A DNA stretch of 49,753 nt from Clostridia bacterium. Its GTDB lineage: Bacteria > Bacillota > Clostridia > Oscillospirales > CAG-272. Of the stretch, positions 6,737 to 39,916 are shown one piece after another. Under the pieces are notes generated by a model that worked only from the letters and a program-made list of their open reading frames with translations, did no database searches and had not been told where the DNA came from. The stretch spans positions 1 through 49,753 of the forward strand of contig JAFYPF010000032.1 in the NCBI GenBank assembly GCA_017547655.1, written 5' to 3'. The position numbers and the translations under genes are program-made. The stretch's first letter is position 1. Each line of letters begins with the position of its first letter.

Positions 6737-8053
6737 TTATCTTCTTCTGTTTTTGCGGTATTTGTATCTGTATCTTTTGCTTCTGGTGCGGTTGTGAATT
6801 ATAACCGCAAAGTAAAGCACTGTTACGCTGACAATACAAAGTAAAACTATTCTGAATTTCGGGGATTTTGTAAAATCTTTAATTCTTGCAAGCAGGTACA
6901 GAAGGTTGTTTCTGTCAACGCTGTTTTTGGTTATAAGATCAACCTCGGATAATATTTCACCGTTGTGCGAAAGTGTGATTTTACCCGCAATATAACCCTC
7001 GGGAATAGGGGCGTTGAGAGAGTTTTTATATAATTCAACGTTGCGGACAATATCTTTTTTTACATCAACCGAAGACGGTAAAAAATACTCTACCGATTTT
7101 GCAGGTGAAAGCACGGCGTAGTCAACTTGACTCGAAAGGTTAACGGCTATTTCACATACCATTTCGCCGGAGTCAAGGAGCTTTTTATATTCAAAGTTTT
7201 TAAATGCCCAGTCTATCATTTCATTTGCGGCAATGTAGCTGTATATATTTTCGTTATCATAACTACCGCCCATAAGTACAAAAATGTTGGTCATACTGTC
7301 TTTTTTGACGGCTGTAACGACCACGTGTCCGCCCTCAATGGTTGAACCTGCATTCAAACCCTCGGCTTGCTTGTTTCTGTATTTCGTTTCTACGTTTGTC
7401 GCAATAAGATAGTTGCTGTTATAAATATATCTGGTTTTCGATACGTTTGTTTCGGGGAATACGTATCTTGATACCGAACAAATATCCATATAATCTTTTA
7501 CAAGATATGCGTAACTCGCGAGAATTGCCGTATCCTCGGCTGTGGTATACATATCCGATTCAGGGTATCCCGATGGATTTGTATAGTTCGTATTTTTCAT
7601 TCCGAGCTCGAAAGCCTTTTGATTCATGTTGTCGAGAAACAGTTCGTGGCTTCCCGACATCTCGTATGCAAGAACGTAGGCTGCATCATTTGCACCGCCT
7701 ATAATTACGGCGTATATAAGGTTTTCGATTGATACTATTTCACCGGCTTTGAGCTTAATGTTTTTTCCTTTGAAATTTCCCAGCGCCTCTTCGGTAACGG
7801 TAACGAGGTCTGACATATTATCTCTATACAGCTCAACAGCCAAAATGCCCGTCATAATTTTTGCCGTTGAAGCAGGGTGAATTCGGTCTGCTTCATTTTT
7901 TTTGTAGAGCGTTTTGTCGTTTTCTATATTGTAAACAAAAACGTTCTGAACACCCGACAGGTCGGGCATATCGTCTTCTGCATATACGGTAATTGCCAAA
8001 AGTGTTAATATTAAAATTGTAAAGCTCAAAGATAACAGTATTCTTTTCTTCAC
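6737..8053 (-). CDS. DacF-like D-alanyl-D-alanine carboxypeptidase family protein (S11) with altered catalytic motifs
   Basis: Penicillin-binding-protein fold, 438 residues. It has an N-terminal signal peptide (about 1-25, ending VYAED), a peptidase S11 domain about 28-265, a beta-rich C-terminal domain, a transmembrane helix near 396-416 and an Arg/Lys-rich cytoplasmic tail. The nucleophile motif SxxK is intact (S62-T-A-K65 in HPASTAKIMTG). The SxN motif reads G120-A-N122 (GGANDAAYVLA), and the KTG motif reads N234-A-G236 (EGLNAGSTIEGG). Active carboxypeptidases trim the terminal D-Ala of peptidoglycan stem peptides; with two of three motifs changed this one may be weak, altered in specificity or non-catalytic. 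Start is GTG at 8053, 5 nt after the ribF stop, so the two genes are co-transcribed. Confidence 0.85.
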   Translation of the reverse strand: MKKRILLSLSFTILILTLLAITVYAEDDMPDLSGVQNVFVYNIENDKTLYKKNEADRIHPASTAKIMTGILAVELYRDNMSDLVTVTEEALGNFKGKNIKLKAGEIVSIENLIYAVIIGGANDAAYVLAYEMSGSHELFLDNMNQKAFELGMKNTNYTNPSGYPESDMYTTAEDTAILASYAYLVKDYMDICSVSRYVFPETNVSKTRYIYNSNYLIATNVETKYRNKQAEGLNAGSTIEGGHVVVTAVKKDSMTNIFVLMGGSYDNENIYSYIAANEMIDWAFKNFEYKKLLDSGEMVCEIAVNLSSQVDYAVLSPAKSVEYFLPSSVDVKKDIVRNVELYKNSLNAPIPEGYIAGKITLSHNGEILSEVDLITKNSVDRNNLLYLLARIKDFTKSPKFRIVLLCIVSVTVLYFAVIIHNRTRSKRYRYKYRKNRRR

Positions 8054-8058
8054 CTTTT

Positions 8059-9003
8059 TTAATTCCCCTGTCTTTTTGAAAAATATTCCCTAACCGAAAG
8101 AATATCCTTTTCGATTGCTTTTTTTAACTCTTCGACTCCGTCGAATTTTTGTTCGTCGCGCAGTTTTTTGTAAAAGCTTACCTTTACCGTTTTTTCGTAA
8201 AGACAACCTTCATAACCAATAATGTGTGTTTCGCAGTTTATGTCGCAAACGTCATTGTTGACGGTAGGTCTAAAGCCGATATTCGATACTCCCATAAAAG
8301 CTTTTCCGTCAATCAGACATTTACTTGCGTATATTCCGTTTTTGGGTTTGACCTTATCTGAGGGAATAGTTTGATTTATCGTAGGTATTCCGATAGTTCT
8401 GCCTAACTGTTTCCCGTATACAACGGGTAGGTTTATCGAATATGTTCTGCCTAACATCTCGTTGGCTTTTTCGATTTCGCCCTTCTCGATTGCATCGCGT
8501 ATGGATGTTGAGCTGATAATGCCCGTATCTGTTTTGACAGCCTCCGCAACAATAACAGTTCTTCCCGATTTTCTGAACAATTGGCTCAATATTTCGGGGG
8601 TTCCTGTTCGGTTTCTTCCGAACCTAAAGTTGAATCCGAATACCGCTAAACGGCAATCAAGCTTTTGGGTAAGGATTATTTCAACAAATTGTTCGGGCGT
8701 ATAGCCTCTGACCGTATCAAAATCTTCGTATATTGCATAGTCAAGACCGTTTTCGGCAAATATTTCGTTTTTTTCTTCATTAGAGGTCAAAAAGGTGTTC
8801 TTTTTGCCCGAAAGAGTATTCATAGGGTGTTCTTTAAATGTCCAAACTCCTATTTTTAAGCCGAGCTTTTTCCCTTCGGATACTGCTTTTTTTATAAGCT
8901 TGAGATGGCCGAGGTGTATTCCGTCAAAGTTTCCCAATATCAAACAAAGGGGAGCCGAGCACTTTTTGATTTCTATTCTGTTTTTCAAATCTATTATTTT
9001 CAA
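8059..9003 (-). CDS. ribF: Bifunctional riboflavin kinase / FAD synthetase
   Basis: Makes FMN from riboflavin and then FAD from FMN and ATP. The N-terminal adenylyltransferase domain shows GNFDGIHLGHLKLI (the nucleotidyl-transferase HxGH motif) and SSTSIRDAIEKGEIEKA; the C-terminal kinase domain shows GRTYSINLPVVYGKQLGRT followed by GIPTIN, a variant of the usual GxPTAN. The start is placed at TTG 9003 (protein begins KIIDLKNRIEIKK, 314 residues) because AAAAAGGGG lies 7 nt upstream; a longer frame from 9057 begins with 18 residues that do not resemble the family. Length then matches typical RibF. It is the gene upstream of the dacF-like gene on the same strand. Confidence 0.93.
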   Translation of the reverse strand: MKIIDLKNRIEIKKCSAPLCLILGNFDGIHLGHLKLIKKAVSEGKKLGLKIGVWTFKEHPMNTLSGKKNTFLTSNEEKNEIFAENGLDYAIYEDFDTVRGYTPEQFVEIILTQKLDCRLAVFGFNFRFGRNRTGTPEILSQLFRKSGRTVIVAEAVKTDTGIISSTSIRDAIEKGEIEKANEMLGRTYSINLPVVYGKQLGRTIGIPTINQTIPSDKVKPKNGIYASKCLIDGKAFMGVSNIGFRPTVNNDVCDINCETHIIGYEGCLYEKTVKVSFYKKLRDEQKFDGVEELKKAIEKDILSVREYFSKRQGN

Positions 9004-9129
9004 AATGTATCCCCTTTTTACGTCATAAAACCAATAACTCTGTCCCAAAACAACCAATGTAGTCGCAAAGGAACAGAGCGTAAAAAATGCGTAACAAAAA
9101 AACTCAAATATTTTTTAGCTTTTAAAAAA

Positions 9130-9387
9130 TTATTTGACTCCGAGAAAATTCTTTACAAGAATATTTAAAAGGTCGTCGCGGTCTATTTTGCGAATGAGAC
9201 TGCGGGCGTTCTTGTAATTTGTAATATAGGTCGGGTCTTCCGAAAGAATATAACCGACTATCTGATTGATGGGATCATAACCCTTTTCGATAAGTGCGGC
9301 ATACACGTTCAAAAGTACTTTTCTTGTGTCGTCGTCTTTGTCTCCGTTAAGCGAAAAGGTTAGTGTTTTATCTTTCTCATCGTACAT
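9130..9387 (-). CDS. ireB: IreB family regulatory phosphoprotein
   Basis: Small 85-residue protein of the former UPF0297 family. Core segments that identify it are [39 protein letters not shown] and the C-terminal [11 protein letters not shown]. In Enterococcus faecalis IreB is phosphorylated by the PASTA kinase IreK and dephosphorylated by IreP, and affects cephalosporin tolerance. The kinase (13369-15447) and phosphatase (12558-13352) homologues are in the same window on the other strand. ATG at 9387 follows GCAAGGAGC by about 10 nt. The N-terminal region is rich in Thr/Ser/Asp, as expected for the phospho-acceptor region. It appears to be transcribed from its own promoter at 9422-9450. Confidence 0.93.
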
Positions 9388-9421
9388 TTTGTTTCAGCTC
9401 CTTGCGAGTTGCATTTTATTT

Positions 9422-9450
9422 ATTTTACACCTAATCCCAAATAATATCAA
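9422..9450 (-). promoter_or_regulatory. Promoter of ireB
   Basis: Minus-strand TTGATA (9445-9450), 17-bp spacer, TAAAAT (9422-9427), ending 35 nt before the ireB start codon. Confidence 0.6.
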
Positions 9451-9504
9451 TAGTTTATAACTTATTTTTTTGATTTCTTTAAGAAAATTTAAGAATTATT
9501 TAAA

Positions 9505-9540
9505 ATTCGCGGCATACGAAAGGCAAAAAACGTACGCCGC
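9505..9540 (-). terminator. Terminator after the S1-domain gene
   Basis: Minus strand GCGGCGTACG (9540-9531) pairs with CGTATGCCGC (9518-9509), one G-U pair, then GAATTTTAAA. It lies 17 nt after the stop at 9557 and upstream of the ireB promoter. Confidence 0.7.
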
Positions 9541-9556
9541 GCCGTTGCATGAGTAT

Positions 9557-10498
9557 TCAAAAATAAGTTTCGATTTGCTTGTTGCATTCGTCGGGGGAGT
9601 ATTTCCAAGACTCTATGTGTTGTACGTTGGCTTTGGGAAACGGGCTGTTGGTATCGGTTTTCTTTTCGCCCTTGTAGCTGTCGATAAGCACGAGTTTTAT
9701 TTTCATTCTCTCGGGTATAATATTTTTTATGTACACTGCGGCTGTTTGACCGACGGTTATGCCTTCTCGGTATTCCGCAAGACCGGCAAGGTTGGGGGTG
9801 AGCTCAACGAATATTCCGTAATCTTCAATGGAACGAACGATACCCGCAACGGTTTGACCGACAGAAAAAAGATTTGCATTTTCTTCCCACGTTCCAAGCA
9901 ACTCTTTGTGTGTTACATATATTCTGCCGGATTCAAAATCAATGTTTTTTATTACCGTATTGATGTATTGCCCTATGGTAAATCTGTCTGACGGGTGGCT
10001 GATTCTTGAAACCGATATGCAGTCGATAGATAAGAGTGAGATTATTCCGCAGCCTATATCGACGAAGGCGCCAAAATGCTCGAGGTGAGTTATTTTTGAT
10101 GGGATAACATCACCGGGTGAAAGGTGAGATAAGTAACATTCATAACATTCTCTTTGAGCCTCGCGCCTTGAAAGAATGCATAACGGAGTGCCGTTTTCGC
10201 TGTATCGTATTTCTTTGATCTTGAAGCATACGGCTTTGCCTACTCTTGTTATGACAGCGATGTCTTTTACACCGTTGCCGCTAATTTCCCAGACAACCTC
10301 TTCTCTTGGAATAATGCCTCGAATGCCGTTACCGAGTTCGATGTACAGGGACATAGCGTTGTTGCAAAGGATAGCCATTCCTTCGAGAATAGCGCCCTCT
10401 TGTTTAGCTCTTTCGAGCCCCGCCAAAGAAGAAAGATATTCTTTGTTTTCAGCTCTTTCGAGCTTCATTCCCTCGGGGTAATACATACGTTTTTCCAT
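9557..10498 (-). CDS. S1 RNA-binding domain protein
   Basis: Protein of 313 residues with at least two S1 OB-fold repeats. The first is at about 135-205 (LSPGDVIPSKITHLEHFGAF through the next strand, ending with RIYVTHKELLG), the second at about 215-280 (FSVGQTVAGIVRSIEDYGIF then VELTPNLAGLAEY). The N-terminal 120 residues contain another OB-like segment (EGAILEGMAILCNNAMSLYI ... RGIIPREE). This arrangement resembles clostridial S1-like proteins with fewer repeats than E. coli ribosomal protein S1; an RNA-binding or translation-linked role is inferred. ATG 10498 is chosen; an in-frame TTG at 10537 would add 13 residues. The last 45 residues, after the second S1 repeat, have no recognisable fold. 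Confidence 0.8.
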   Translation of the reverse strand: MEKRMYYPEGMKLERAENKEYLSSLAGLERAKQEGAILEGMAILCNNAMSLYIELGNGIRGIIPREEVVWEISGNGVKDIAVITRVGKAVCFKIKEIRYSENGTPLCILSRREAQRECYECYLSHLSPGDVIPSKITHLEHFGAFVDIGCGIISLLSIDCISVSRISHPSDRFTIGQYINTVIKNIDFESGRIYVTHKELLGTWEENANLFSVGQTVAGIVRSIEDYGIFVELTPNLAGLAEYREGITVGQTAAVYIKNIIPERMKIKLVLIDSYKGEKKTDTNSPFPKANVQHIESWKYSPDECNKQIETYF

Positions 10499-25580: not shown

Positions 25581-25633
25581 ATAGGGTACGAATGCGATTT
25601 ATTGGAAATGATATGACAAAGAAGGGCGAAATG

Positions 25634-26743
25634 ATGAGAAGATACATTGACTGGAAGAAACAGACGCATTTTGTTTTCCCGATTGACGGAGATGTTTTGA
25701 ACGAATATGACGGAGAAATACGTAACGGAAAATTATACGTTAAAGCGAGAGTAGAGTCTGACACTCCCGTTAAAATAAACGGTGTTGATGCAGAGATGAA
25801 GAATGGTTTTTATATCGCCGAAGTATGTATTGACGGCGAAAGGACTACTCTCGTTGCCGAGGGAGCAAATGCAAAGGACGAAATTACTGTATTCACCCTC
25901 AAAAAGCATATAGGTTACTACCGTCTTTCTAGTGATGACAATATTATTTTCCTTTATGACATAAATAAGAATAAGGACAAGTACAGCTCTATTTTTGACA
26001 ATCCTTATCTTGCGGTATATAAAAAGGCGCACGAATTTTACGGCGCATGCGTTCATATCAATATTTATTATGAAATGCCCGCAGAACATAAGTATTTTAC
26101 GGAAACCAGAGAGTATTTTAACTTGTCAATGATGACAGATAAGTTTAAGTCTGAATGGCAGGAAAATTCCGACTGGCTCAAGCTTAACTTTCATGCTAAA
26201 GCAGACCAGCCCGACAAACCCTACGTTGATACCGACTACGATACAATATATAATGACTGCAAACAGGTGATGGAAGAGATTGTTCGTTTTGCGGGTAAGG
26301 AAACGCTTTCTAATGAAACAACGGTGCATTGGGGTGCTGTTACCTACGAGGGCACAAAGGCTGTCAGAGACTTGGGATTGAAGAGCCTTGCGGGTTATTT
26401 TGTTCTTGAGGGTGGAGACCCTATAGTGTCTTATTTCTACCCGAAAGACCTTACGGATTATTTGTCGCAGAGAGATTTTTGGTACGATACGGAGCTTGAT
26501 ATACTCTACTGTAAGATAGACAGGGTGCTCAATCTTCATACGGCTGAACAGTGCGTTGACCTTCTTAACCTTATGAACACACAAAAGACACGCAGTGGAT
26601 TTATTGAGCTTATGATGCACGAGGAATACTTTTATCCCGATTGCACACTTTATGAGGAAGATTTTGAATCAAGAGTACTCGAGCCGTGCCGTTGGTGTTA
26701 TGAGCACGGATATAAGGGCATATTCCTTGACGAAGTAAGATAA
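25634..26743 (+). CDS. Conserved-looking protein of unknown function upstream of hisS
   Basis: Protein of about 369 residues. I do not recognise a named family with confidence. The first 90 residues are beta-rich (VFPIDGDVLNEYDGEIRNGK, NGFYIAEVCIDGERTTLVAE) and resemble an immunoglobulin-like or carbohydrate-binding lead domain. Residues about 95-369 look like an alpha/beta barrel-type domain with SDWLKLNFHAKADQPDKPYV, TTVHWGAVTYEG and a C-terminal WCYEHGYKGIFLDE, which faintly recall polysaccharide-deacetylase-like proteins. No signal peptide, so it is probably cytoplasmic. ATG 25634 has AGGG 7 nt upstream; in-frame ATGs also occur at 25592, 25613 and 25631. It precedes hisS by 37 nt without a terminator. 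Confidence 0.6.
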   Translation: MRRYIDWKKQTHFVFPIDGDVLNEYDGEIRNGKLYVKARVESDTPVKINGVDAEMKNGFYIAEVCIDGERTTLVAEGANAKDEITVFTLKKHIGYYRLSSDDNIIFLYDINKNKDKYSSIFDNPYLAVYKKAHEFYGACVHINIYYEMPAEHKYFTETREYFNLSMMTDKFKSEWQENSDWLKLNFHAKADQPDKPYVDTDYDTIYNDCKQVMEEIVRFAGKETLSNETTVHWGAVTYEGTKAVRDLGLKSLAGYFVLEGGDPIVSYFYPKDLTDYLSQRDFWYDTELDILYCKIDRVLNLHTAEQCVDLLNLMNTQKTRSGFIELMMHEEYFYPDCTLYEEDFESRVLEPCRWCYEHGYKGIFLDEVR

Positions 26744-29855: not shown

Positions 29856-29863
29856 GATGATAA

Positions 29864-29914
29864 AAGGGGCTGTCTTATTAGCAAAAAATGAATTTGAGAC
29901 AGCTCCTTTATTAT
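29864..29914 (+). terminator. Terminator after aspS
   Basis: AGGGGCTGTCT ... AGACAGCTCCT imperfect stem with a loop of about 22 nt, followed by TTATT. It ends the hisS-aspS unit. Confidence 0.65.
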
Positions 29915-30054: not shown

Positions 30055-30093
30055 ATAAAATTGAAGAAATATAGGCAGAGGAAAGGTGATAGA

Positions 30094-30888
30094 GTGCAGG
30101 TTGTAAATAATATCAAATATGTATGTAAGAAGTATAGTTTTTTGCTGAAACAGCTTGTTTCGCGCGATTTTAAGGTTAAATATAAGAGAAGTGTATTGGG
30201 AGTTTTTTGGAGCCTTTTGTATCCTGTGTTGACAATGGCGGTAATGGCTTTGGTTTTCACAAATGTGTTTAAGTTTACGACGCCGGGAGTTAACTATCTT
30301 GCATATCTTATGTCGGGCCTTGTAATGTTCAACTATTTCAGCGAGGCATCAAACCTTGCGATGAGCAGTGTGGTGGCGAACTTTAGTTTGATTAACAAGG
30401 TTTATATGCCGAAATATATATTCCCTGTTTCAAAATGCGTATTTGTTGGGATTAACTTTTTGCTTTCGTTGATTCCTCTTTATGTGATTTTACTTGCTAC
30501 TGGGACGGGCGTGAATTTATATCATATTTTTCTGCCTTATGCTTACGTTTGCCTTTTCTTGTTTACGGTGGGATTTAGCTTAATATTATCATCGGTTGCG
30601 GTGTTTTTGAGAGATATGTTTTATATATACGGTGTCGTTATTTCGCTTTGGACGTATATGACACCCATTATGTACGACATTGCAATAATAGACAAGCCTG
30701 CGCTTTTGTTTATTTTTAAGCTTAACCCTTTATATTGGATAGTGTATTTTGTAAGACGTATTATGCTTTATAATACTATTCCCGAGATAAACGCTTGGAT
30801 ATACTGTGCTCTTGTTGCGATAGTGGCAATGGTAGCAGGTATAGTGGTGTTTAAAAAGACTCAGGATAAGTTTATATATTACGTGTAA
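30094..30888 (+). CDS. ABC-2 type polysaccharide/teichoic-acid export permease
   Basis: Membrane permease of 264 residues (TagG/Wzm family) that moves a lipid-linked glycan across the membrane. The N-terminal amphipathic gate-helix segment (LLKQLVSRDFKVKYKRSVLG) precedes six hydrophobic spans; FWSLLYPVLTMAVMALVF is the first and YYV the C terminus. The late MTPIMYDI and LNPLYWIVYFVRRIMLYN segments are typical of the family. Start is GTG 30094 with AAAGGTG 5 nt upstream; the longer frame from TTG 30061 would add 11 residues. It is the first gene of the cluster, 14 nt before the ATPase. Confidence 0.92.
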   Translation: MQVVNNIKYVCKKYSFLLKQLVSRDFKVKYKRSVLGVFWSLLYPVLTMAVMALVFTNVFKFTTPGVNYLAYLMSGLVMFNYFSEASNLAMSSVVANFSLINKVYMPKYIFPVSKCVFVGINFLLSLIPLYVILLATGTGVNLYHIFLPYAYVCLFLFTVGFSLILSSVAVFLRDMFYIYGVVISLWTYMTPIMYDIAIIDKPALLFIFKLNPLYWIVYFVRRIMLYNTIPEINAWIYCALVAIVAMVAGIVVFKKTQDKFIYYV

Positions 30889-30902: not shown

Positions 30903-31646
30903 ATGGAACATAATTATATGGTTGAAGTTGATAATGTTTCTATGCGTTTCAACCTTGGAATAGAGAAAGGCTTTTCGCTTAAGCAATGGTTTGTTGATAT
31001 AGGAAGCGGAAAGAAGAAAGAAAAGAAGGATTTTTGGGCGCTGACCGACGTTAGTTTTAAGGTGAAAAAGGGCGAGGTTATTGGTTTTATAGGCTCTAAC
31101 GGCGCAGGCAAATCGACAATGCTTAAGGTTGTAGCCGGTGTTATGAATCCGACAAAGGGTGGCGTTAAGTCTTATGGAAACATTTGTCCTATGATCGAGC
31201 TTGGCGCAGGATTTGACTCGCAGCTTACAGCGAGAGAAAATATTTATCTTAACGGCGCAATAATGGGCTATTCAAAGGAGTTTATTGATTCGAAATTTCA
31301 AGAGATAGTTGATTTTTCGGAATTACACGATTTTCTTGACGTGCCGGTTCAGAACTTTTCATCGGGTATGGTGGCAAGACTTGCGTTCTCGGTAGCGACA
31401 GTTGTTGATCCGGAAATATTGATTGTAGATGAAATATTGTCTGTTGGAGATATAGCTTTTCAAAATAAGAGCGAACAAAAGATGCTCAGCATGATAAACG
31501 GAGGTACTACGGTGCTCTTTGTTTCACATTCAATTGAGCAGATAAAGAAGATGTGCGATACTGTTGTATGGCTTGACCACGGTCATGTGAAAATGATTGG
31601 CGGTAAAGAAGTATGCGATGAGTATATGCGGACTATGATGGGATAG
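30903..31646 (+). CDS. ABC transporter ATPase for polysaccharide/teichoic-acid export
   Basis: ATPase of 247 residues (TagH/Wzt family). It shows Walker A GSNGAGKSTM, the signature QNFSSGMVARLAFS, Walker B EILIVDEILSVGD and switch His in LFVSHSIEQI. The typical exporter motif IELGAGFD follows the Q-loop. It ends right after the nucleotide-binding domain, so it lacks the C-terminal carbohydrate-binding domain of Wzt proteins that recognise a modified glycan end; substrate choice is thus likely made by the permease. Pairs with the preceding gene. Confidence 0.93.
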   Translation: MEHNYMVEVDNVSMRFNLGIEKGFSLKQWFVDIGSGKKKEKKDFWALTDVSFKVKKGEVIGFIGSNGAGKSTMLKVVAGVMNPTKGGVKSYGNICPMIELGAGFDSQLTARENIYLNGAIMGYSKEFIDSKFQEIVDFSELHDFLDVPVQNFSSGMVARLAFSVATVVDPEILIVDEILSVGDIAFQNKSEQKMLSMINGGTTVLFVSHSIEQIKKMCDTVVWLDHGHVKMIGGKEVCDEYMRTMMG

Positions 31647-31650
31647 TAAA

Positions 31651-32745
31651 ATGAAAAAGAGCAGAATCGTTTTTTTTAGTCGCGATCTAAAAATTGGTGG
31701 TATGGAAAAGGCTTTAGTTTTATTATTGAACTCTCTGGCTGATTTAGATTGTTACAATATAACGTTGGTTCTTGAAAAAAAAGAAGGTCCCCTTTTGAGT
31801 AAAATAAATAATAATATAACTGTAAGAGAATATCGGTTAAGTAGTATTAAAAATGTGTTCTTTCGCAAGGTGTCAAATTATCTTCATCGTTTGTTTTGGA
31901 CTCTAAAGAATTACAATAGATATAGTTTTTCATGTAATTATGCTACATATTCTGTGATAGGCTCAAGATTAGCTCAAATTGCCTCGAAAAACAACTCGCT
32001 TTATATACATAGTGATTATTATAATGTGTTCGACAAAAATGAACAAAAAATGCTTTCATTTTTTTCTGAACTTAAAGCGCGGAAATTTAAACATTTAATT
32101 TTTGTATCAAATGAGAGCAAAGATAACTTTATAAATGTTTTGCCGAATTTTAAATCAAAATGTAAAGTCATTAATAATATTATAGATTACGAATTAGTTA
32201 AAAAATTAGCATATGAAGAGTGTTTATATGAATTTAATCCTGACTGTAAAAATTTTATTTTTATTGGCAGATTAGACAATGTATCTAAAAACTTAGACTT
32301 ACTTGTAGAAAGTTTTAATTTAGCATATCAAAAAGATAAAAATATTTGTTTGTATATAGTAGGAAACGGACCTTATAAGGCAGAAATAGAAAAATATATA
32401 AGGACAAACAAATTACAAGGATGCATAGAACTTTTTGATGAAACATTAAATCCGTATGTATATTTGAAAGAATGTGATTTTCTAATATTAACCTCTAATT
32501 ACGAAGGATTTCCGGTTGTTTATTTAGAGGCATTAGTTCTTAACAAAAAAATTATCACTACAGTATTAACAAGTGATGATATGCTTAGTGTTTCAGATTA
32601 TTCGATATATATTAACAAGAACGCTCAAAACATTGCTGAAACAATTTTGCAAGTTGATAAAAATGAAAAAGTTAATTGGAACATTGACTTTAAACAAATG
32701 AATGAAAATAAGGTTAACAAAATAATAAGTATAGTGGGAGGTTAA
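31651..32745 (+). CDS. Glycosyltransferase, GT4-like (GT-B fold)
   Basis: Protein of 364 residues. The N-terminal donor-loop segment RDLKIGGMEKALVLLLNSL and the C-terminal FIFIGRLDNVSKNLDLLVES and SNYEGFPVVYLEAL (E-x7-E motif) mark a retaining GT-B enzyme that adds a sugar from a nucleotide-sugar donor. Donor and acceptor cannot be told. It is the first gene of the AT-rich block: codon use shifts sharply to AAA, ATA and TTA compared with the ATPase gene 4 nt upstream. Confidence 0.88.
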   Translation: MKKSRIVFFSRDLKIGGMEKALVLLLNSLADLDCYNITLVLEKKEGPLLSKINNNITVREYRLSSIKNVFFRKVSNYLHRLFWTLKNYNRYSFSCNYATYSVIGSRLAQIASKNNSLYIHSDYYNVFDKNEQKMLSFFSELKARKFKHLIFVSNESKDNFINVLPNFKSKCKVINNIIDYELVKKLAYEECLYEFNPDCKNFIFIGRLDNVSKNLDLLVESFNLAYQKDKNICLYIVGNGPYKAEIEKYIRTNKLQGCIELFDETLNPYVYLKECDFLILTSNYEGFPVVYLEALVLNKKIITTVLTSDDMLSVSDYSIYINKNAQNIAETILQVDKNEKVNWNIDFKQMNENKVNKIISIVGG

Positions 32746-32749
32746 CTGT

Positions 32750-34261
32750 ATGAAAAATAAGTTAAAAATAGTTGCTGGATATATAAAAAGATTATATATT
32801 ATTAATGATGATGTTGAATACTTATATAATAAATTATATTCAATGAGCACAAGTGAAAAAAACATAAAAAGCATTTTAGAAAATTTTTATAACGAATATA
32901 ATACTAAAATTGAAGTAGATATAGATACATTTATAAAAACAGTTAATAGAATATATGAAGATATTTCAGACAATTTGAATGAAGAACTTTTAAATAAAAA
33001 ACAAGTGGCGCGCTCGTTTGGAAACGAATACCGTATAAAAGATAAACATAATTTTGAAAAAATGACGTATCCTTTGTTTTTGTTTATTAACAATTTATAT
33101 TTTAAATTATTAAAAAATAATTGTGAAAGAGTGTTCTTTTTTGCAAGAGAAGGACAGTTTTTAAAAAAGTTATTTGATAAATATCAAGAAGCTATTGAAG
33201 GGCCAAAAATTAAAACAGAGTATCTTTATGTATCCAGAGCATCAACCTTTTTAGGAACTTTGAAATCTCTTGATGAAGAAAATTTTGATGCATTGTTTGT
33301 ACAATATCCACATATGAGTATAGATACTTTTTGTAAGAATTTAGGTTTTTCAGAAGAAGAGATAATAAAAATAATTGATATAGTTAAAGTAAATATATTT
33401 GAAATAATATACGATTTAAAAGATAAAGAAGTGTTTAAAAAACTAACAGCTAATGAATATTTTATAAAATTGTATGAAGAAAAAAGACAAAAATCAAAAG
33501 AAAATTTTCTTAAATATTTAGATGGATTTAAAATATTAAATGAGAAAGAGCTGCACATTGTAGATGTTGGCTGGAAAGGAAGTATTCAAAACAATCTTCA
33601 AAAATGTATTCCTCATATTAAAGTACACGGATATTACGTTGGATTAGTACATTATGGTGAGGTTTTTGATTATGAAAAAAAGGAAGCAGTATTATTTGAA
33701 TATACTGCACACAAAATATCAAACAATGGTTATTTGTATAATAGCAATCGTCCTTTTTTTGAAATATTTTTAGACGCTGATCATGGAAGCACGGTGAATT
33801 ACGTTACTAAGAACGGGAAAACAGAGCCTGTTTTAAATGAACTTGAAAAAGAACAAATAATGTATAATAATCACATTAAGCCAATTCAATCTGCAATTTA
33901 TAATAAATTTGAAAAACTACTTAATATATTAAAATACGGTTATTATGACATTGAAACCATAGAAAAGATGTTTAATTTAAAATTTTTTGAATTAAATTTT
34001 GTTTCAAGCAAGAGTGAATTAGAAGAATTTAATGCTTTATATCATTATGAAAATTTCGGAGTAATGAATTATTCTACTTTCAAGCGTAATACAAAATTAA
34101 ATATAAAACAAAAGATAAAGGCTTATTTGAGATTTCATAGATTTATTCAAAATGATGAAACATGGCAATGTTTAAAACTTTATAATAGTAATATGTATTT
34201 AGGTAGATTAATGTTAATTATTTATAAAAAAATGAGATTGAAAAAAAATAATGTTATTTAG
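32750..34261 (+). CDS. Uncharacterised glycan-cluster protein sharing a domain with the HAD-fused protein downstream
   Basis: Protein of 503 residues with no signal peptide or clear membrane helix. Residues about 105-400 form a domain that is also in the protein at 35433-37433. Shared landmarks are VFFFAREGQFLKKLFD (128-143), YVSR (160-163), VDVGWKGSIQ (271-280), and FEIFLDADHGSTVNYV before a PVLNE segment. The same domain is known attached to HAD hydrolases in COG5610-type proteins of polysaccharide clusters, but its activity is not established. Here it stands alone, with an extra 100-residue helical N terminus and a basic C-terminal tail (KKMRLKKN). A transferase or phosphotransferase acting on the glycan is a guess from context. 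Confidence 0.7.
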   Translation: MKNKLKIVAGYIKRLYIINDDVEYLYNKLYSMSTSEKNIKSILENFYNEYNTKIEVDIDTFIKTVNRIYEDISDNLNEELLNKKQVARSFGNEYRIKDKHNFEKMTYPLFLFINNLYFKLLKNNCERVFFFAREGQFLKKLFDKYQEAIEGPKIKTEYLYVSRASTFLGTLKSLDEENFDALFVQYPHMSIDTFCKNLGFSEEEIIKIIDIVKVNIFEIIYDLKDKEVFKKLTANEYFIKLYEEKRQKSKENFLKYLDGFKILNEKELHIVDVGWKGSIQNNLQKCIPHIKVHGYYVGLVHYGEVFDYEKKEAVLFEYTAHKISNNGYLYNSNRPFFEIFLDADHGSTVNYVTKNGKTEPVLNELEKEQIMYNNHIKPIQSAIYNKFEKLLNILKYGYYDIETIEKMFNLKFFELNFVSSKSELEEFNALYHYENFGVMNYSTFKRNTKLNIKQKIKAYLRFHRFIQNDETWQCLKLYNSNMYLGRLMLIIYKKMRLKKNNVI

Positions 34262-34269
34262 GAGTTAAA

Positions 34270-35433
34270 ATGAAAATAGTGTTTTTATTGGGTTCCCCGG
34301 ATATTAGCGGGGGGACATACGTAATATTTCAACATGCATTAAAATGCTTAGATGATAATAATGAAGTTACAATAGTAACGGATGAAGAAGTAACACCTAA
34401 AAGAATAGCATGGCATAAGGATGCAAAAAGACTAAATTTTAAAAAATACAAAGATGTAAAAAATGAAAATTTTGATTTAGCCATTGCAACATGGTGGAGA
34501 ACAGTTTATGAATTGCCAAAAATAAATGCAAACAATTATATGTATTTTGTACAATCTATAGAATCCAATTTTGTAGAAAGCGACGATTGGGTTTTAAAGA
34601 GGTTAATTGATGCAACTTATACTCTGCCTATACCAATAATTACTGAAGCAACGTGGATTAAAGAGTATCTTGAAGAAAATTATGGAGCAAAAGTAAAATT
34701 AGTACGTAATGGAATAAGAAAAGATATTTATACAGAGATTGGTGATAAATATCCAAAAGAAGATGGTACCTTTAGAGTTCTTCTTGAAGGTCCGGTAGAT
34801 ATTTTTTATAAAAATATACCTAAAACTCTTGAAATTGTTAAAAAAAGTAAGGCTGATGAAATATGGCTTTTAACATCCAGTGATATACAAAAGTATGATG
34901 GAGTAGATAAATTATTTTCAAAGCAACCACTTTCTGAGTGTGCAAAGATTTACCGTTCATGTGATGTTTTAGTGAAATTAAGCTTAGTTGAAGGAATGTT
35001 CGGGCCTCCCTTAGAAATGTTTCATTGCGGAGGAACTGCTATAACTTATAAGGTTAGCGGGTGGGACGAATATATGAAAGACGGTTATAATTCCTTAGTA
35101 GCAGAGATGCATGACGAAGAAAAAATCTTGTATTTAATTAATAAGTTATATGATGACAGAGATTTGTTAAAAAAATTAAAAAGAAATGCACTAAAAACTG
35201 CCCAGAATTGGCAAGGTTGGGAAGAATCAAGTAACGCATTTTATGATGCAATGATGTCTTTGGCAGAAGATTCATATCACACAAAGTTAATCAAAAAAAC
35301 AATAAAGTTTTATATGGATACTTTTGAATTATATTGGAAAAATAATATAACTTTTAGACGAAGAGTAGGGAATTTCTTAAGAAAACATCTTATGTTAGTT
35401 TATAAATTATATAGAAAGATCATAAGAAAGTAG
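34270..35433 (+). CDS. Glycosyltransferase, GT4-like, rhamnosyl/glucosyl-type of unknown specificity
   Basis: Protein of 387 residues with a GT-B fold. Near the N terminus LLGSPDISGGTYVIFQHALK resembles the acceptor-side loop, and DLAIATWWRTVYELPKI follows. The C-terminal half has VLLEGPVDIFYKNIPKTLEI, CDVLVKLSLVEGMFGPPLEM with the E-x7-E motif, and the NWQGWEESSNAFYDAM tail. The last 55 residues are Lys/Arg-rich (KKTIKFYMD, RRRVGNFLRKHLM), which could dock it to the membrane. It lies 8 nt after the uncharacterised gene and overlaps the next start by 1 nt (TAGTG). Confidence 0.85.
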   Translation: MKIVFLLGSPDISGGTYVIFQHALKCLDDNNEVTIVTDEEVTPKRIAWHKDAKRLNFKKYKDVKNENFDLAIATWWRTVYELPKINANNYMYFVQSIESNFVESDDWVLKRLIDATYTLPIPIITEATWIKEYLEENYGAKVKLVRNGIRKDIYTEIGDKYPKEDGTFRVLLEGPVDIFYKNIPKTLEIVKKSKADEIWLLTSSDIQKYDGVDKLFSKQPLSECAKIYRSCDVLVKLSLVEGMFGPPLEMFHCGGTAITYKVSGWDEYMKDGYNSLVAEMHDEEKILYLINKLYDDRDLLKKLKRNALKTAQNWQGWEESSNAFYDAMMSLAEDSYHTKLIKKTIKFYMDTFELYWKNNITFRRRVGNFLRKHLMLVYKLYRKIIRK

Positions 35434-37433
35434 TGAGTTGTATGAATGAATTAAAAAACTTAGAAGCGCTAATAGATAAATATGATGTAATATCTTTTGA
35501 TATTTTTGATACATTATTACTTAGAAATGTTTTAAAACCCATAGATATATTCAGAATTTTGGAAATAGAAGTCAAAGAAAAATATTATATTAATAATTTC
35601 TGCAGAATGAGAATTGAGGCTGAACAAAATTCCAGAACCGAAGAAAATCATTATGAAACGTCACTTGATGAAATATATGATACTTTATCAATAAATTCTA
35701 AAATAATAAAAGAAGAAATTAAAAAAATGGAGATAAATCTTGAAAAAGAATTTTTGACATTTAATCCATTTATGAAATCTGTATACGATTATGCTGTTTC
35801 TAAAAACAAAAAGGTTGTATGTATATCAGATATGTACCTGCCTGAAAAAATTATTTCTGATATATTAAATAACAATGGGTATGAAGGCATTAAAGTTTAT
35901 GTTTCAAATGAATATCATAAACATAAAGGTAATATGACTTTATACGAATTGGTTTTGGAAAAAGAAAAATTTGAAAAAGAAAAATGGTTACATATCGGAG
36001 ATAATTATTACTCTGATTATGAACAAGCAAGAAAATTCGGAATAAGTTCTTATCATTACAAAAATGTTTTATCAAGAAGCAAAAATTTAGGAGACAATTT
36101 AAGCGTGGCAAGTAGCATAATTTTTGCTATATCTAACAATGCTGTAAATAACGGGTTGGAAGTAGATTATTGGAAAAAATTCGGTATAATTAACGCAGCA
36201 CCCTTATACTATGCTTTTGCTAATTGGGTTTATAAAAATAATATTGATCACGATAATATATATTTTTTTGCAAGAGATGGTTATATTATAAAAAAAATAT
36301 TTGATAATATAAAAATGGTTGAGAATAGTAAAATTTTTTCATCATATTTATACACATCTCGTAGAGCAACTCAATTACCGATTTTAACTTACGAGAAAAA
36401 AACAGTTGCTGTAGATATGTTATGCGGGGTTAACTTTCAGTATGATAAAAATCAAAAGTTAAGAACAATATTTGAGTGTTTTAATTTGGATGCGGATAAA
36501 TATAGCGAAGTTATAAAAAAATACGGCTTCCTAAGTCCTGATGATATTATAACAATAGAGAATCATATATATTATCGACAATTAATATCTGAAGTTTATG
36601 ATGACTTCGAACAAAAAATGAATGAACAAAAAGAATTAATCGAAAAATATTTGATTCAAGAAAAAGTATATGAGCACAAGAAAATGAATGCAGTAGATAT
36701 AGGGTGGCGGGGTAGTATTCAATATGCATTAAGTAAAATATCTGAAGTTGAGTTGTTTGGGTATTATTTCTGCACAGGACAATATATTTATGAAGATATA
36801 TTATATAATACAAGAGGATTTTTATTAAATTATAATAAGCCCGAAACGATTTCTAATTTAATAATTAATAACATGATGATGTTTGAATTTATTTTTTCAT
36901 CACCGGAAGGCTCATTAGTAAGATATGAGGAACAAGACAATAAAGTAATTCCTGTTTTAAGCGAAAACAAAGATTATATTAAAGAAGTAAGTATTATACA
37001 AGATGCAGCAATAAATATAATTGATAAATATTTAAAGTATTATAAATATACTAGCAAAATAGACAGTGAAGAATCATTGTTGCCGTATAAAAATTATTTA
37101 GAAACAAGAGATTATAATGATGTAAAAATGGTATCAACATTATTTACAAACGTGGGCTACTCCGGAAATGAATTTAGTTTTATTAATTCCTTTACCAAAG
37201 AAGAAATAGAAAATAATATTATGAATTTTTTTGAGGGTGGGATAATAAAATCCTTATGGGAAAAAACTTTTGTGATTGAGGGAATAGATTCTGCTGAAGA
37301 ATTTAATTCTTATATGGCACATATTGATAATAAATATAAAAAAATGTGCAAAATAAGATTTTTAAAAAGGTTTAAACCAAGAAATGTATTAAGAGTATTA
37401 AAAAGAAAAGTTAAAGTTCTAATTAAAGGATAG
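35433..37433 (+). CDS. HAD hydrolase fused to the uncharacterised glycan-cluster domain (COG5610-like)
   Basis: Protein of 666 residues. Residues about 15-215 are a HAD domain: motif I DIFDT (Asp23, Asp26), motif II Ser132 in CISDMYLP, motif III Lys165 in HKHKGNMTLYELV, and motif IV HIGDNYYSDYEQA (188-200). All catalytic positions are kept, so phosphatase or phosphomutase-type chemistry is plausible. Residues about 245-560 repeat the domain of the 32750-34261 protein: IYFFARDGYIIKKIFD, YTSR (307-310), VDIGWRGSIQ (421-430), FEFIFSSPEGSLVRY, PVLSE. The basic C terminus ends RFLKRFKPRNVLRVLKRK. GTG 35433 overlaps the preceding stop; ATG 35442 is an equally likely start. Confidence 0.8.
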   Translation: MSCMNELKNLEALIDKYDVISFDIFDTLLLRNVLKPIDIFRILEIEVKEKYYINNFCRMRIEAEQNSRTEENHYETSLDEIYDTLSINSKIIKEEIKKMEINLEKEFLTFNPFMKSVYDYAVSKNKKVVCISDMYLPEKIISDILNNNGYEGIKVYVSNEYHKHKGNMTLYELVLEKEKFEKEKWLHIGDNYYSDYEQARKFGISSYHYKNVLSRSKNLGDNLSVASSIIFAISNNAVNNGLEVDYWKKFGIINAAPLYYAFANWVYKNNIDHDNIYFFARDGYIIKKIFDNIKMVENSKIFSSYLYTSRRATQLPILTYEKKTVAVDMLCGVNFQYDKNQKLRTIFECFNLDADKYSEVIKKYGFLSPDDIITIENHIYYRQLISEVYDDFEQKMNEQKELIEKYLIQEKVYEHKKMNAVDIGWRGSIQYALSKISEVELFGYYFCTGQYIYEDILYNTRGFLLNYNKPETISNLIINNMMMFEFIFSSPEGSLVRYEEQDNKVIPVLSENKDYIKEVSIIQDAAINIIDKYLKYYKYTSKIDSEESLLPYKNYLETRDYNDVKMVSTLFTNVGYSGNEFSFINSFTKEEIENNIMNFFEGGIIKSLWEKTFVIEGIDSAEEFNSYMAHIDNKYKKMCKIRFLKRFKPRNVLRVLKRKVKVLIKG

Positions 37434-37440
37434 TATCAAA

Positions 37441-38550
37441 ATGAACAAAATCAAAGTGATGAGCATATTCGGGACACGTCCCGAGGCTATAAAAATGGCA
37501 CCTTTGGTAAAGGAACTTGAGAAGCGCGAAGAAATTGAGAGTATTGTTTGTGTTACCGCACAGCACAGAGAAATGCTTGACCAGGTTTTGGATACATTTG
37601 ATATTAAGCCTGATTATGACCTTAATATGATGAAACAAGGACAAACACTTGTTGATATTACAAATAGGGCAATGACCGGTGTAGATGCTGTTATCAAAGA
37701 AGCAAAGCCTGATATTGTGCTTGTTCACGGTGATACTTCCACGACGTTTGCCGGAGCTTTGGCTGCTTTCTATAATCAAGTTGCAATAGGTCACGTCGAA
37801 GCAGGTCTTCGTACATATAACAAATATTCGCCATATCCCGAGGAAATGAACAGACAAATGGTTGACTGTATGACGGATATGTATTTTGCTCCAACCGAAC
37901 TTAGCCGAGAGAATCTTCTCAAGGAAAACTATGACGACAGCAAAATATACGTTACCGGTAATACGGCGATCGACGCTATGAGCACCACTGTAGAAGAAAA
38001 CTACACTCATCCCGAGCTTGATTGGCTCGAGGGAGACAAGCTTATTCTTCTCACTGCTCACAGACGAGAAAACCTCGGTGAGCCTATGAAAAACATTTTC
38101 AGAGGTATCAGAAGAGTTCTTGACGAGGTTGATGGAATAAAAGTAATATATCCCATACACAAGAATCCTCTTGTGCGCGCGGCAGCAGATGAAATATTCG
38201 GAGATTGTGACAGAGTTAAGCTTATTGAGCCTCTTGAAGTATTTGATTTCCACAATTTCCAAAATGTTTCGCACTTGATTTTGTCTGATAGCGGCGGTAT
38301 ACAAGAAGAGGCGCCCTCGCTTGGCAAGCCTGTTCTTGTTCTTCGTGATACAACAGAAAGACCTGAAGGTATTGTCGCAGGAACATTGAAATTGGTAGGA
38401 ACTGATACTGATGTTATCTACAAAGAAACCATGCGTTTGCTTACTGACAAGCAAGAATATGAACGTATGAGCAGAGCTTCAAATCCCTACGGCGACGGCC
38501 ACGCAAGCGAGCGAATCGTCGACGCAATTATTAAGAAGTTTATCAAATAA
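37441..38550 (+). CDS. wecB: Non-hydrolysing UDP-N-acetylglucosamine 2-epimerase
   Basis: Protein of 369 residues that interconverts UDP-GlcNAc and UDP-ManNAc, supplying ManNAc for surface glycans. Family segments are MSIFGTRPEAIKMAPLVKEL, VTAQHREMLDQVLDTF, VHGDTSTTFAGALAAFY, GHVEAGLRT, PYPEEMNRQM, LLTAHRRENLG and the catalytic/UDP-binding SDSGGIQEEAPSLGKPVLV with RDTTERPEG. Length is exactly that of the family. It lies 7 nt after the AT-rich block, but its own base use matches the housekeeping genes of the window, so it marks the right border of that block. Confidence 0.97.
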   Translation: MNKIKVMSIFGTRPEAIKMAPLVKELEKREEIESIVCVTAQHREMLDQVLDTFDIKPDYDLNMMKQGQTLVDITNRAMTGVDAVIKEAKPDIVLVHGDTSTTFAGALAAFYNQVAIGHVEAGLRTYNKYSPYPEEMNRQMVDCMTDMYFAPTELSRENLLKENYDDSKIYVTGNTAIDAMSTTVEENYTHPELDWLEGDKLILLTAHRRENLGEPMKNIFRGIRRVLDEVDGIKVIYPIHKNPLVRAAADEIFGDCDRVKLIEPLEVFDFHNFQNVSHLILSDSGGIQEEAPSLGKPVLVLRDTTERPEGIVAGTLKLVGTDTDVIYKETMRLLTDKQEYERMSRASNPYGDGHASERIVDAIIKKFIK

Positions 38551-38577: not shown

Positions 38578-39846
38578 ATGAGAGAAAAGTTTTCGAAACT
38601 TGTAAACGTTTACAAGAAATACGGTTTTATTGGCTTTTGTAAAAAGCTGTATGCTTATATCGTTGCAAATTATTTAAACAAAATAAGCTTTGCGGTGTTT
38701 TTTAATCCAAAGAAGTACAGGAAGCAGTTGAGTGATATACTGAATTCAGACTCTTTTGACAGAATTGTACTCTGGAGAAGCAGCTTTGGATATAACGTTC
38801 CTCTGTTTCAGCGTCCGCAGCATATTGCAAATAATTTGTCAAAGAACCGTTGTCTTGTGCTTTACGAGGTAACTACGATGACCGATAAGGTCAAAACCAT
38901 AAAAGAATTTGGTGATAATCTATATCTTATCAACTACAATAACGTTTTGCTCAACAAGATATTGATGTCCGAGCTTGAAAAAGTAACCAAACCCAAGTAT
39001 ATACAGCTTTATTCAACCGACTGGAAGCTTTCGGTGCAAAATATAAAGGATTATATGTCAAAGGGATATGGCTTTATATACGAGTATATAGACGATATAA
39101 GTCCAGAGCTTGCGGGTACAAAAAATCTTCCGCAGAATATAGTTGATAAGTACGAATATGCAATGGGGAATACCGATGTATTCGTAGTTGTAACTGCCGA
39201 CTTGCTGCGTGAAGACGTTATCAATCACAGGGGCGAAAAGAATCTTGTAATGTCTTCGAATGGAGTTGATTATTCTTTTTTTGGCAGTGTAGATGAAAAC
39301 TTTGATTATATGCCGGAATTCAAGTCGATTCTTGAAAAGGGAAAGCCTATAGTATGTTATTACGGAGCGTTGGCAAAGTGGTTTGATTATAATCTTATAA
39401 AAAAAATTGCCGCTACCGGCAAATATTCGATAGTCCTTTTTGGCATTAAGTATGATGAGGCATACGATGAAAATATGAACGGCGAAGAAAACGTATATTT
39501 TCTCGGTCCGGTTGATTACAAGATTTTAAAGAACTATGCGGCGAAGTGTGATATACTTACCATTCCTTTTGTTATAAACAATATAACAAAGGCGACAAGC
39601 CCGGTTAAGCTTTTTGAGTATATGGCGCTTCACAAGCCTATAGTAACAACGGATATGAATGAGTGTCGTAAATATGAAAGTGTTATGCGCGGCGTTGACC
39701 ACGATGATTTTATTGCCAAGCTTGACAAGGCGTTGGAGCTAAAAAGCGACAGTAATTATATGGAGCTTCTCGATAAAGAGGCTCGTGAAAATGACTGGTT
39801 GGAAAAGGCAAAAGTAATTATCAATCTTATATCAAAATCGGAGTAA
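38578..39846 (+). CDS. Glycosyltransferase (GT-B fold), last gene of the glycan operon
   Basis: Protein of 422 residues. The early WRSSFGYNVPLFQRPQHIAN segment is typical of a GT4-like subgroup in which QRPQH lies at the start of the acceptor domain. The C-terminal half has VCYYGALAKWFDYNLIKKI, VYFLGPVDYKILKNYAAKCD and the donor-site FVINNITKATSPVKLFEYMA, where SPVKLFEYM replaces the usual E-x7-E. Short basic helices at the N terminus (VYKKYGFIGFCKKLYAYIV) may touch the membrane. It is 27 nt after wecB and is followed by a terminator. Confidence 0.85.
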   Translation: MREKFSKLVNVYKKYGFIGFCKKLYAYIVANYLNKISFAVFFNPKKYRKQLSDILNSDSFDRIVLWRSSFGYNVPLFQRPQHIANNLSKNRCLVLYEVTTMTDKVKTIKEFGDNLYLINYNNVLLNKILMSELEKVTKPKYIQLYSTDWKLSVQNIKDYMSKGYGFIYEYIDDISPELAGTKNLPQNIVDKYEYAMGNTDVFVVVTADLLREDVINHRGEKNLVMSSNGVDYSFFGSVDENFDYMPEFKSILEKGKPIVCYYGALAKWFDYNLIKKIAATGKYSIVLFGIKYDEAYDENMNGEENVYFLGPVDYKILKNYAAKCDILTIPFVINNITKATSPVKLFEYMALHKPIVTTDMNECRKYESVMRGVDHDDFIAKLDKALELKSDSNYMELLDKEARENDWLEKAKVIINLISKSE

Positions 39847-39853
39847 AACAGTA

Positions 39854-39897
39854 AGGACTGTCTCAAAAGCAAAATTTACCGCTAACGAGACAGTCCC
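39854..39897 (+). terminator. Terminator of the glycan operon
   Basis: GGACTGTCTC / GAGACAGTCC perfect 10-bp stem with a loop of about 22 nt, 8 nt after the last stop. The U-run is weak (CTATG). Confidence 0.6.
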
Positions 39898-39916
39898 TAT
39901 GTATTTCATAAGCAAA

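Follow-up and report, generated by a model that had tools for sequence, protein, structure and literature searches.

Two paralogous proteins, P0001 and P0002, are encoded in an export/assembly cluster of the Clostridia bacterium contig JAFYPF010000032.1 (assembly GCA_017547655.1), whose 49,753 nucleotides constitute the window analyzed here. Both carry a glycan phosphoribosyltransferase (gPRT) domain, and P0002 also carries a HAD-type phosphoribosyl-phosphatase (PRP) domain. Each gene follows a glycosyltransferase (GT) gene, GT_a before P0001 and GT_b before P0002. In the reading that we favor as the probable one, the block GT_a-P0001-GT_b-P0002 produces a polymer whose repeat contains two ribofuranoses, the PRP of P0002 serving both transferases in trans. 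The block would build part of an exported polysaccharide: two transferases dependent on phosphoribosyl pyrophosphate (PRPP) would add two beta-ribofuranose residues to what we infer to be different acceptors, and the P0002 phosphatase would strip the 5-phosphate from both products, including that of P0001, permitting addition of the next sugar. The enzymes and their chemistry are already known, and the remaining interest lies in a PRP-less gPRT beside a PRP-gPRT.

The shared domain and its active site

P0001 is an open reading frame (ORF) of 503 amino acids (aa) with an ATG start. P0002 has 666 aa and a GTG start, with an alternative ATG three codons downstream, and its start overlaps the stop of the preceding gene by one base. 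The two genes and their predicted domains, with matches to PDB entries and to hidden Markov models (HMMs) and the guanine-plus-cytosine (GC) content, are as follows.

32750..34261, + strand: P0001, solo gPRT without a phosphatase domain (7shg, E 2.5e-51; GC 23.1%)
33008..34066, + strand: gPRT domain of P0001, aa 87-439 (HMM match 7e-82; pocket residues mapped)
35433..37433, + strand: P0002, dual-domain PRP-gPRT (7shg, 6e-24; Bcs3, 5e-19; GC 25.2%)
35448..36089, + strand: PRP domain (HAD-type) of P0002, aa 6-219, nucleophile D23 (HMM match; motifs; HAD_2, 2.4e-5)
36141..37169, + strand: gPRT domain of P0002, aa 237-579 (HMM match 2e-82)

The two proteins are paralogous over the common domain (31% identity over 302 aa, E 9e-20), and an earlier account of this DNA made from its letters alone (the sequence-only reading) had placed both ORFs correctly. 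The ordered motifs that it listed were found in both proteins, namely, FFAREG/FFARDG, YVSR/YTSR, VDVGWKGSIQ/VDIGWRGSIQ, HGS/EGS, and PVLNE/PVLSE (P0001/P0002), except that FE.F holds only for P0001 (FEIF), P0002 having FEFI. Its assignment of an intact HAD domain to P0002 and of none to P0001 also held: the motifs are complete in P0002 (D23, S132, K165, and D190/D195), and neither the profile search nor Pfam found a PRP/HAD domain in P0001. Motif I of P0002 reads D-I-F-D-T and not DxD, F25 replacing the second aspartate, which is normal for the family, since the first aspartate alone is conserved in motif I of CrpP, the corresponding domain of Bcs3 (PMC10299916; this paper and those cited below are represented by passages).

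Sequence searches of the PDB placed the common domain in a known family. Residues 83-455 of P0001 match chain A of 7shg ("Ribofuranosyl transferase") over its transferase part only, while P0002 matches both 7shg and Bcs3 across both domains, with the E values listed above. A profile built from 19 gPRT domains, which recovers both P0001 and P0002, matched 7shg at 1.4e-62 and Bcs3 at 4e-27, the next match (0.17) being at chance level; the region of Bcs3 that it matched is chain 635-951, the PRPP-using part, and not the N-terminal ribitol-phosphate transferase. These matches firmly support prediction of the common domain as the gPRT domain of PRPP-dependent ribofuranosyltransferases and of the P0002 HAD domain as a PRP. 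In this family, the gPRT (CriT) transfers ribofuranose-5-phosphate from PRPP and the PRP (CrpP) then strips the 5-phosphate (PMC10299916, PMC11127046, PMC11231755, PMC12887879, PMC12096443). Structures have been solved (7shg; Bcs3, 8a0c/9h50), and activity has been measured for Klebsiella O4/O7, Bcs3 of Haemophilus influenzae type b, Campylobacter Cj1432, and Escherichia coli KrkA (PMC10299916, PMC11231755, PMC12096443, PMC12887879). The description of the domain as uncharacterized and without established activity must therefore be abandoned. The founding paper on the family, by Kelly et al. in 2022, is said to call the PRP promiscuous.

The sequence-only reading had suggested a sugar-phosphate or alditol-phosphate transferase, with the HAD domain acting before or after it. 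The first of these activities stands, as transfer of ribofuranose-5-phosphate from PRPP, the second does not, and by the published mechanism the HAD domain acts after the transferase, as a phosphatase. That reading had also named membership in a known transferase family as a result that would count against it; the membership found here by sequence matches tells against novelty, not against the mechanism. It is extremely improbable that the common domain is an alditol-phosphate transferase of the CDP-glycerol/ribitol type: such an enzyme is fused to the PRP-gPRT in Bcs3 (PMC10299916), but the homology lies with the portion of Bcs3 that uses PRPP, and neither protein matched a TagF-type transferase in Pfam or the CroT part of Bcs3. 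Nor did Pfam yield a classical phosphoribosyltransferase for either protein at E values up to 0.1, and a Pfam HTH_Mga match inside the gPRT domain of P0001 (E 7e-4, below the cut-off) was treated as chance. In NCBIfam, P0001 had no match and P0002 matched HAD models only, one of them above the cut-off.

The conserved residues, which had been proposed as an active site, indeed map by alignment onto the published PRPP pocket of Bcs3 (Arg, Asp/Glu, Ser-Arg, Asp-x-Gly-Trp, and Glu). Bcs3 residues R679, D680, S707, R708, E818, E874, and S884 (list from PMC10299916; the chain number in 9h50 is the paper's number plus 1, by our count) correspond to R133, E134, S162, R163, D272, E338, and S347 of P0001. 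P0002 has R, D, S, R, D, and E at six pocket columns, and Bcs3 R712 is not conserved. In the 58-row alignment, in which one row (L106) is poorly aligned at these columns, R, D/E, S, R, D, and E are present in all 16 PRP-less gPRTs. Judged from sequence, P0001 is very likely an active gPRT and P0002 is almost certainly a dual-domain ribofuranosyltransferase. With no HAD domain on the same polypeptide, P0001 is classed as a gPRT and not as a dual-domain enzyme; P0002 has one (aa 6-219).

We also considered that P0001 has become inactive as a transferase and serves P0002 structurally, in a hetero-oligomer or as an acceptor holder. Bcs3 forms a head-to-tail dimer in which CriT touches the CrpP of the other protomer (PMC10299916), as such a role would have it, but the catalytic columns are intact in 16/16 solos, P0001 even has the S884 equivalent, and P0001 falls among PRP-fused enzymes and is accompanied by a conserved GT partner of its own, so that we regard this role as very unlikely. 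That P0001 and P0002 form one assembly is plausible, given the recurrent pairing described below. In two PRP-less gPRTs of 364 to 365 aa (L089 7529-8626 and L091 10890-11984), the central part of the domain (profile positions ~80-160) is missing, yet the pocket columns still read R, D, S, R, D, and E.

Partners of phosphatase-less gPRTs

Genomes matching the gPRT profile at E 1e-8 numbered 16/391 in the class set, 9/295 in the family set, and 4/228 in the phylum set, the window's genome being in each; with the best few candidates per genome scored, these counts are lower bounds. Single-sequence searches of genomes found fewer cases (P0001, 4/295 in the family and 3/398 in the phylum; P0002, 15/391 in the class), and the scan of genome contigs contributed at least four loci. 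Among the 24 distinct class and family genomes, 14 have a PRP-less gPRT and 10 have PRP-fused gPRTs only, as do the three additional genomes of the phylum set. A PRP-gPRT is present in 13 of the 14 solo-bearing genomes; the exception (G1041) has a broken gPRT on a 5-kb contig. Phage records gave no match to P0001, and the eight stretches of viral contigs that fit the pattern included no relative.

The survey cases, together with a metagenome-assembled genome (MAG) of Bacilli (L035) and the plasmid loci L107 and L108, provided 16 intact PRP-less gPRTs. For 15 of them, a PRP-gPRT lies on the same fetched stretch and on the same strand. The remaining one (L029) stops about 1.2 kb short of the end of its contig, and a PRP-gPRT of its genome (L098) lies on another contig, 0.35 kb from its start. 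In the scored table, another PRP-gPRT was nearby in 15/15 PRP-less versus 4/34 PRP-bearing rows (Fisher test, 2e-9, ignoring kinship); the window had been chosen for its pair, and its omission leaves 14/14. The neighbor states used in the tests were entered by hand. The table comprised 49 of the 58 rows; L029, L098, L038, L086, L100, L103, L105, L106, and T. composti were left out because the stretch was short or cut or came without neighboring sequence. L088 (a gPRT in two pieces on a 4,961-bp contig) was excluded from trees and counts, L104, a duplicate of L031, was kept out of the trees, and L112 to L115 were added after the trees had been built; L112 to L114 have PRP-fused gPRTs only, and L115 repeats L108.

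These distributions bear on a reading in which P0001 is active, an unrelated phosphatase of the cell takes off its phosphate, and the pairing reflects a two-ribofuranose repeat only. We consider it unlikely, since none of the 24 gPRT-bearing genomes has an intact solo but no PRP-gPRT, while 10 have PRP-fused gPRTs only, and since it leaves the free PRP of locus L032 unexplained.

This free PRP is found in a locus syntenic with L085 (the gene before the solo, the solo, a GT2 gene, an ABC-2 permease gene, a 242-aa gene, which is probably an ATPase gene, and the next gene, with 43 to 79% identity). At the position where L085 has a 694-aa PRP-gPRT, L032 has a 268-aa PRP alone, with 42% identity to the PRP part of the former. 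Its motifs are intact, it belongs to the same PRP clade as the L085 PRP (95/91), and it lies 29 bases from the next gene. The retention of a free PRP in the cluster of a solo gPRT is suggestive of phosphatase sharing, not proof of it. Action in trans is further supported by the CroT/CrpP and CriT pieces of Bcs3, which were inactive separately and active when combined in trans (PMC10299916).

A different outcome would be that the product of P0001 is never dephosphorylated, P0001-type solos deliberately leaving a ribofuranose-5-phosphate in place for good, whether as a charged side group, to stop the chain, or as the site of a later phosphodiester, while the PRP-gPRT partner adds a plain ribofuranose in the same repeat. 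The absence of a PRP domain from P0001 fits this outcome, as do the rates of Cj1432, for which transfer (37/min) exceeds hydrolysis (3.4/min) (PMC12096443). In L083, a PRP-less gPRT (aa 30-379) and an ABC-2 permease (aa 473-674) share a single 716-aa ORF (7848-9998), and in L029, L030, and L034 the permease gene lies immediately downstream of the solo, both of which would suit a late step before export. However, the PRP step is described as enabling chain extension (PMC11231755), and a lasting phosphate leaves the PRP-gPRT beside 15/16 solos and the free PRP of L032 without a reason. Moreover, the L107 and L108 loci contain a methyltransferase gene adjoining a Wzt gene that bears Wzt_C. A methyltransferase and a Wzt with Wzt_C are the usual chain-end pair. 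We hence find a lasting phosphate unlikely; if it were true, a charge would be written into the polymer by the absence of a domain.

Several observations weigh against phosphatase sharing. Independent contrasts numbered only three on starred branches and four in all (sign test, p 0.25), and the gPRT tree has several long branches. Some PRP-bearing rows that stayed in the scored table, L093 and L101 among them, are close to the end of a contig, where a neighbor may be hidden. L097 and L110 have two PRP-bearing gPRTs each, and in the L037 genome another contig encodes a further PRP-fused gPRT, so that the presence of two gPRTs does not force PRP loss. The clustering of partners could merely reflect membership in glycan loci. 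The partner PRP of L034 is split over two overlapping frames, and L032 also encodes a Bcs3-like PRP-gPRT, so that its free PRP is not the sole phosphatase. Finally, at the column of S884, which in Bcs3 contacts the beta-phosphate, PRP-less gPRTs have serine in 3/16 cases (P0001 among them) and methionine in 8/16.

Recurrent cassette and origins of the solo state

On the 58-row gPRT tree, the PRP-less state needs four changes, and the starred branches force four. Constraining the PRP-less rows together was rejected by the approximately unbiased (AU) test both on this tree (p 5e-68) and on the first, 48-row tree (p 2e-4). Parsimony gives no direction, and loss of the PRP is more likely than gain because the fused form is widely spread. 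By eye, the PRP tree broadly tracks the gPRT tree, swapping of PRPs between partners having been considered. The P0001-type clade (100/100) contains the solos of the window and L035 and those of L107 and L108, together with the PRP-fused L036, L037, and T. composti 7shg, the last being the sister of the L107 and L108 solos. A second large solo clade (11 rows) has different partner genes: a GT2 gene adjoins the solo in five of the eight loci examined by Pfam (L028, L032, L034, L085, and L097), and an ABC-2 permease gene lies downstream of the solo in L029, L030, L034, and L084, directly adjoining it in the first three.

The order solo gPRT-GT4-PRP-gPRT is found in the window, in the Bacilli MAG, on Rhizobium rosettiformans plasmid p1 (L107), and on Pseudomonas aeruginosa plasmids (L108 and L115); seven P. 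aeruginosa records matched, and the order was read in these two. Genes for an exporter permease and ATPase are present at all four kinds of locus. Homologues of GT_b with 44 to 63% identity lie near P0001-type gPRTs in L035, L107, L108, L036, and L037, in the last two of which the P0001-type gPRT bears its own PRP. Within the cassettes, the intervening GT4 is homologous in every case, with 46 to 63% identity. The PRP-gPRT partners of the window and L035 and those of L107 and L108 belong to separate gPRT clades, indicating that one transferase-GT pair met different phosphatase-bearing partners. In the annotated plasmids covered here, the PRP-less gPRTs are labelled "hypothetical protein."

The GT_b homologue of L036 (11275-13899), which lies beside a ribofuranosyltransferase gene, carries an inosine-uridine nucleoside hydrolase domain at its C terminus (Pfam, 4.9e-15), a ribosidase-type domain fused to a transferase of a ribose-adding pair. 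The L108 and L115 plasmids carry the cassette together with a galE-containing polysaccharide cluster of the ABC-exporter type, near copies of ISPpu21 and phage tail and holin genes. An O-antigen-ligase-like membrane domain and a WecG/TagA glycosyltransferase are joined in a single 723-aa ORF of L035 (4941-7112).

Known systems and the window cluster

P0002 resembles the dual-domain enzymes of Klebsiella O4/O7 and T. composti (7shg) in the order PRP-gPRT and in its residues (the latter compared with 7shg), and the gPRT domains of 7shg and P0001 fall in the same clade (100/100). Unlike in those systems, P0001 lacks a PRP and the window locus has two gPRTs for one PRP. CrpP and CriT of the H. influenzae type b enzyme Bcs3 (CroT-CrpP-CriT) correspond to the two domains of P0002; most PRPP pocket residues, R712 excepted, are common to Bcs3 and the window proteins, and its pieces can function in trans in vitro when apart (PMC10299916). 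In contrast to Bcs3, no ribitol-phosphate transferase was found in the window cluster, and natural Bcs3 has PRP and gPRT on one chain. Cj1432 of Campylobacter jejuni (PMC12096443) and KrkA of E. coli K13 (PMC12887879) likewise combine GT, PRP, and gPRT modules for exported capsules, but on one polypeptide and with one ribose per repeat.

The E. coli K16 capsule has a ribofuranose (Ribf)-Ribf-Kdo repeat, with two ribofuranoses as the window cluster would predict (PMC13171606). Its cluster has one ribofuranosyltransferase, with predicted domains as in Ribf-Kdo clusters and the second transfer unexplained, whereas the window has two gPRT genes; phosphatase sharing bears on the K16 case. In the passages of the family literature covered here, gPRTs of stated make-up have the PRP on the same chain and no natural PRP-less gPRT is described; that coverage stops short of Kelly et al. 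2022 and supplements, and we do not claim absence from print. The published survey of ribofuranose-adding enzymes used the PRP domain as its marker (PMC11127046), so that PRP-less gPRTs would escape it. If the phosphatase is shared, the rule "one transferase, one phosphatase, one polypeptide" has been broken naturally, by repeated evolution, glycans with two ribofuranoses per repeat would be predictable from genomes, and the PRP would be a detachable tool for cell-free glycan synthesis.

The remaining genes of the window cluster are the following.

30061..30888, + strand: Wzm-like ABC-2 exporter permease, opening the export/assembly cluster (Pfam ABC2_membrane, 1.7e-15; 70% identity to the L035 orthologue)
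30903..31646, + strand: ABC exporter ATPase (Wzt-like), 247 aa (Pfam ABC_tran, 7e-21; 70% identity to the L035 orthologue)
31651..32745, + strand: GT_a, GT4 glycosyltransferase, start of the AT-rich block (Glycos_transf_1, 3.8e-18; 47.5% identity to L035 8677-9762; GC 26.5%)
34270..35433, + strand: GT_b, GT4 glycosyltransferase, conserved partner of P0001-type gPRTs (Glycos_transf_1, 6.7e-11)
37441..38550, + strand: WecB, non-hydrolysing UDP-N-acetylglucosamine (UDP-GlcNAc) 2-epimerase (TIGR00236, 6e-162; Epimerase_2, 6.6e-122)
38578..39846, + strand: GT_c glycosyltransferase, last gene before a hairpin (Glyco_trans_1_4, 3.2e-9)

Pfam found no C-terminal Wzt_C in the ATPase, and GT_b has no PDB relative at E 0.001. 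WecB probably supplies UDP-N-acetylmannosamine (UDP-ManNAc) for the cluster and may point to ManNAc somewhere in the polymer. The GC content of the block 31651-37433 (GT_a, P0001, GT_b, and P0002) is 23 to 30%, compared with 36 to 42% for the other four cluster genes and 40 to 46% for 11 of the 12 genes measured outside the cluster (the twelfth, 36.4%). The block is most likely one imported unit, given this difference from its surroundings.

Elsewhere in the window, a 383-aa ORF (25592-26743) had no match in Pfam (E 0.1) or NCBIfam (E 0.01). A promoter scan of the cluster gave 70 sites, against 55.3 ± 7.3 in shuffled sequence, a difference that we regard as uninformative. Similar hairpins (CTGTCTYA ... 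GAGACAG) stand at both ends of the cluster (29856-29910 and 39847-39910) and are possibly terminators or a small repeat.

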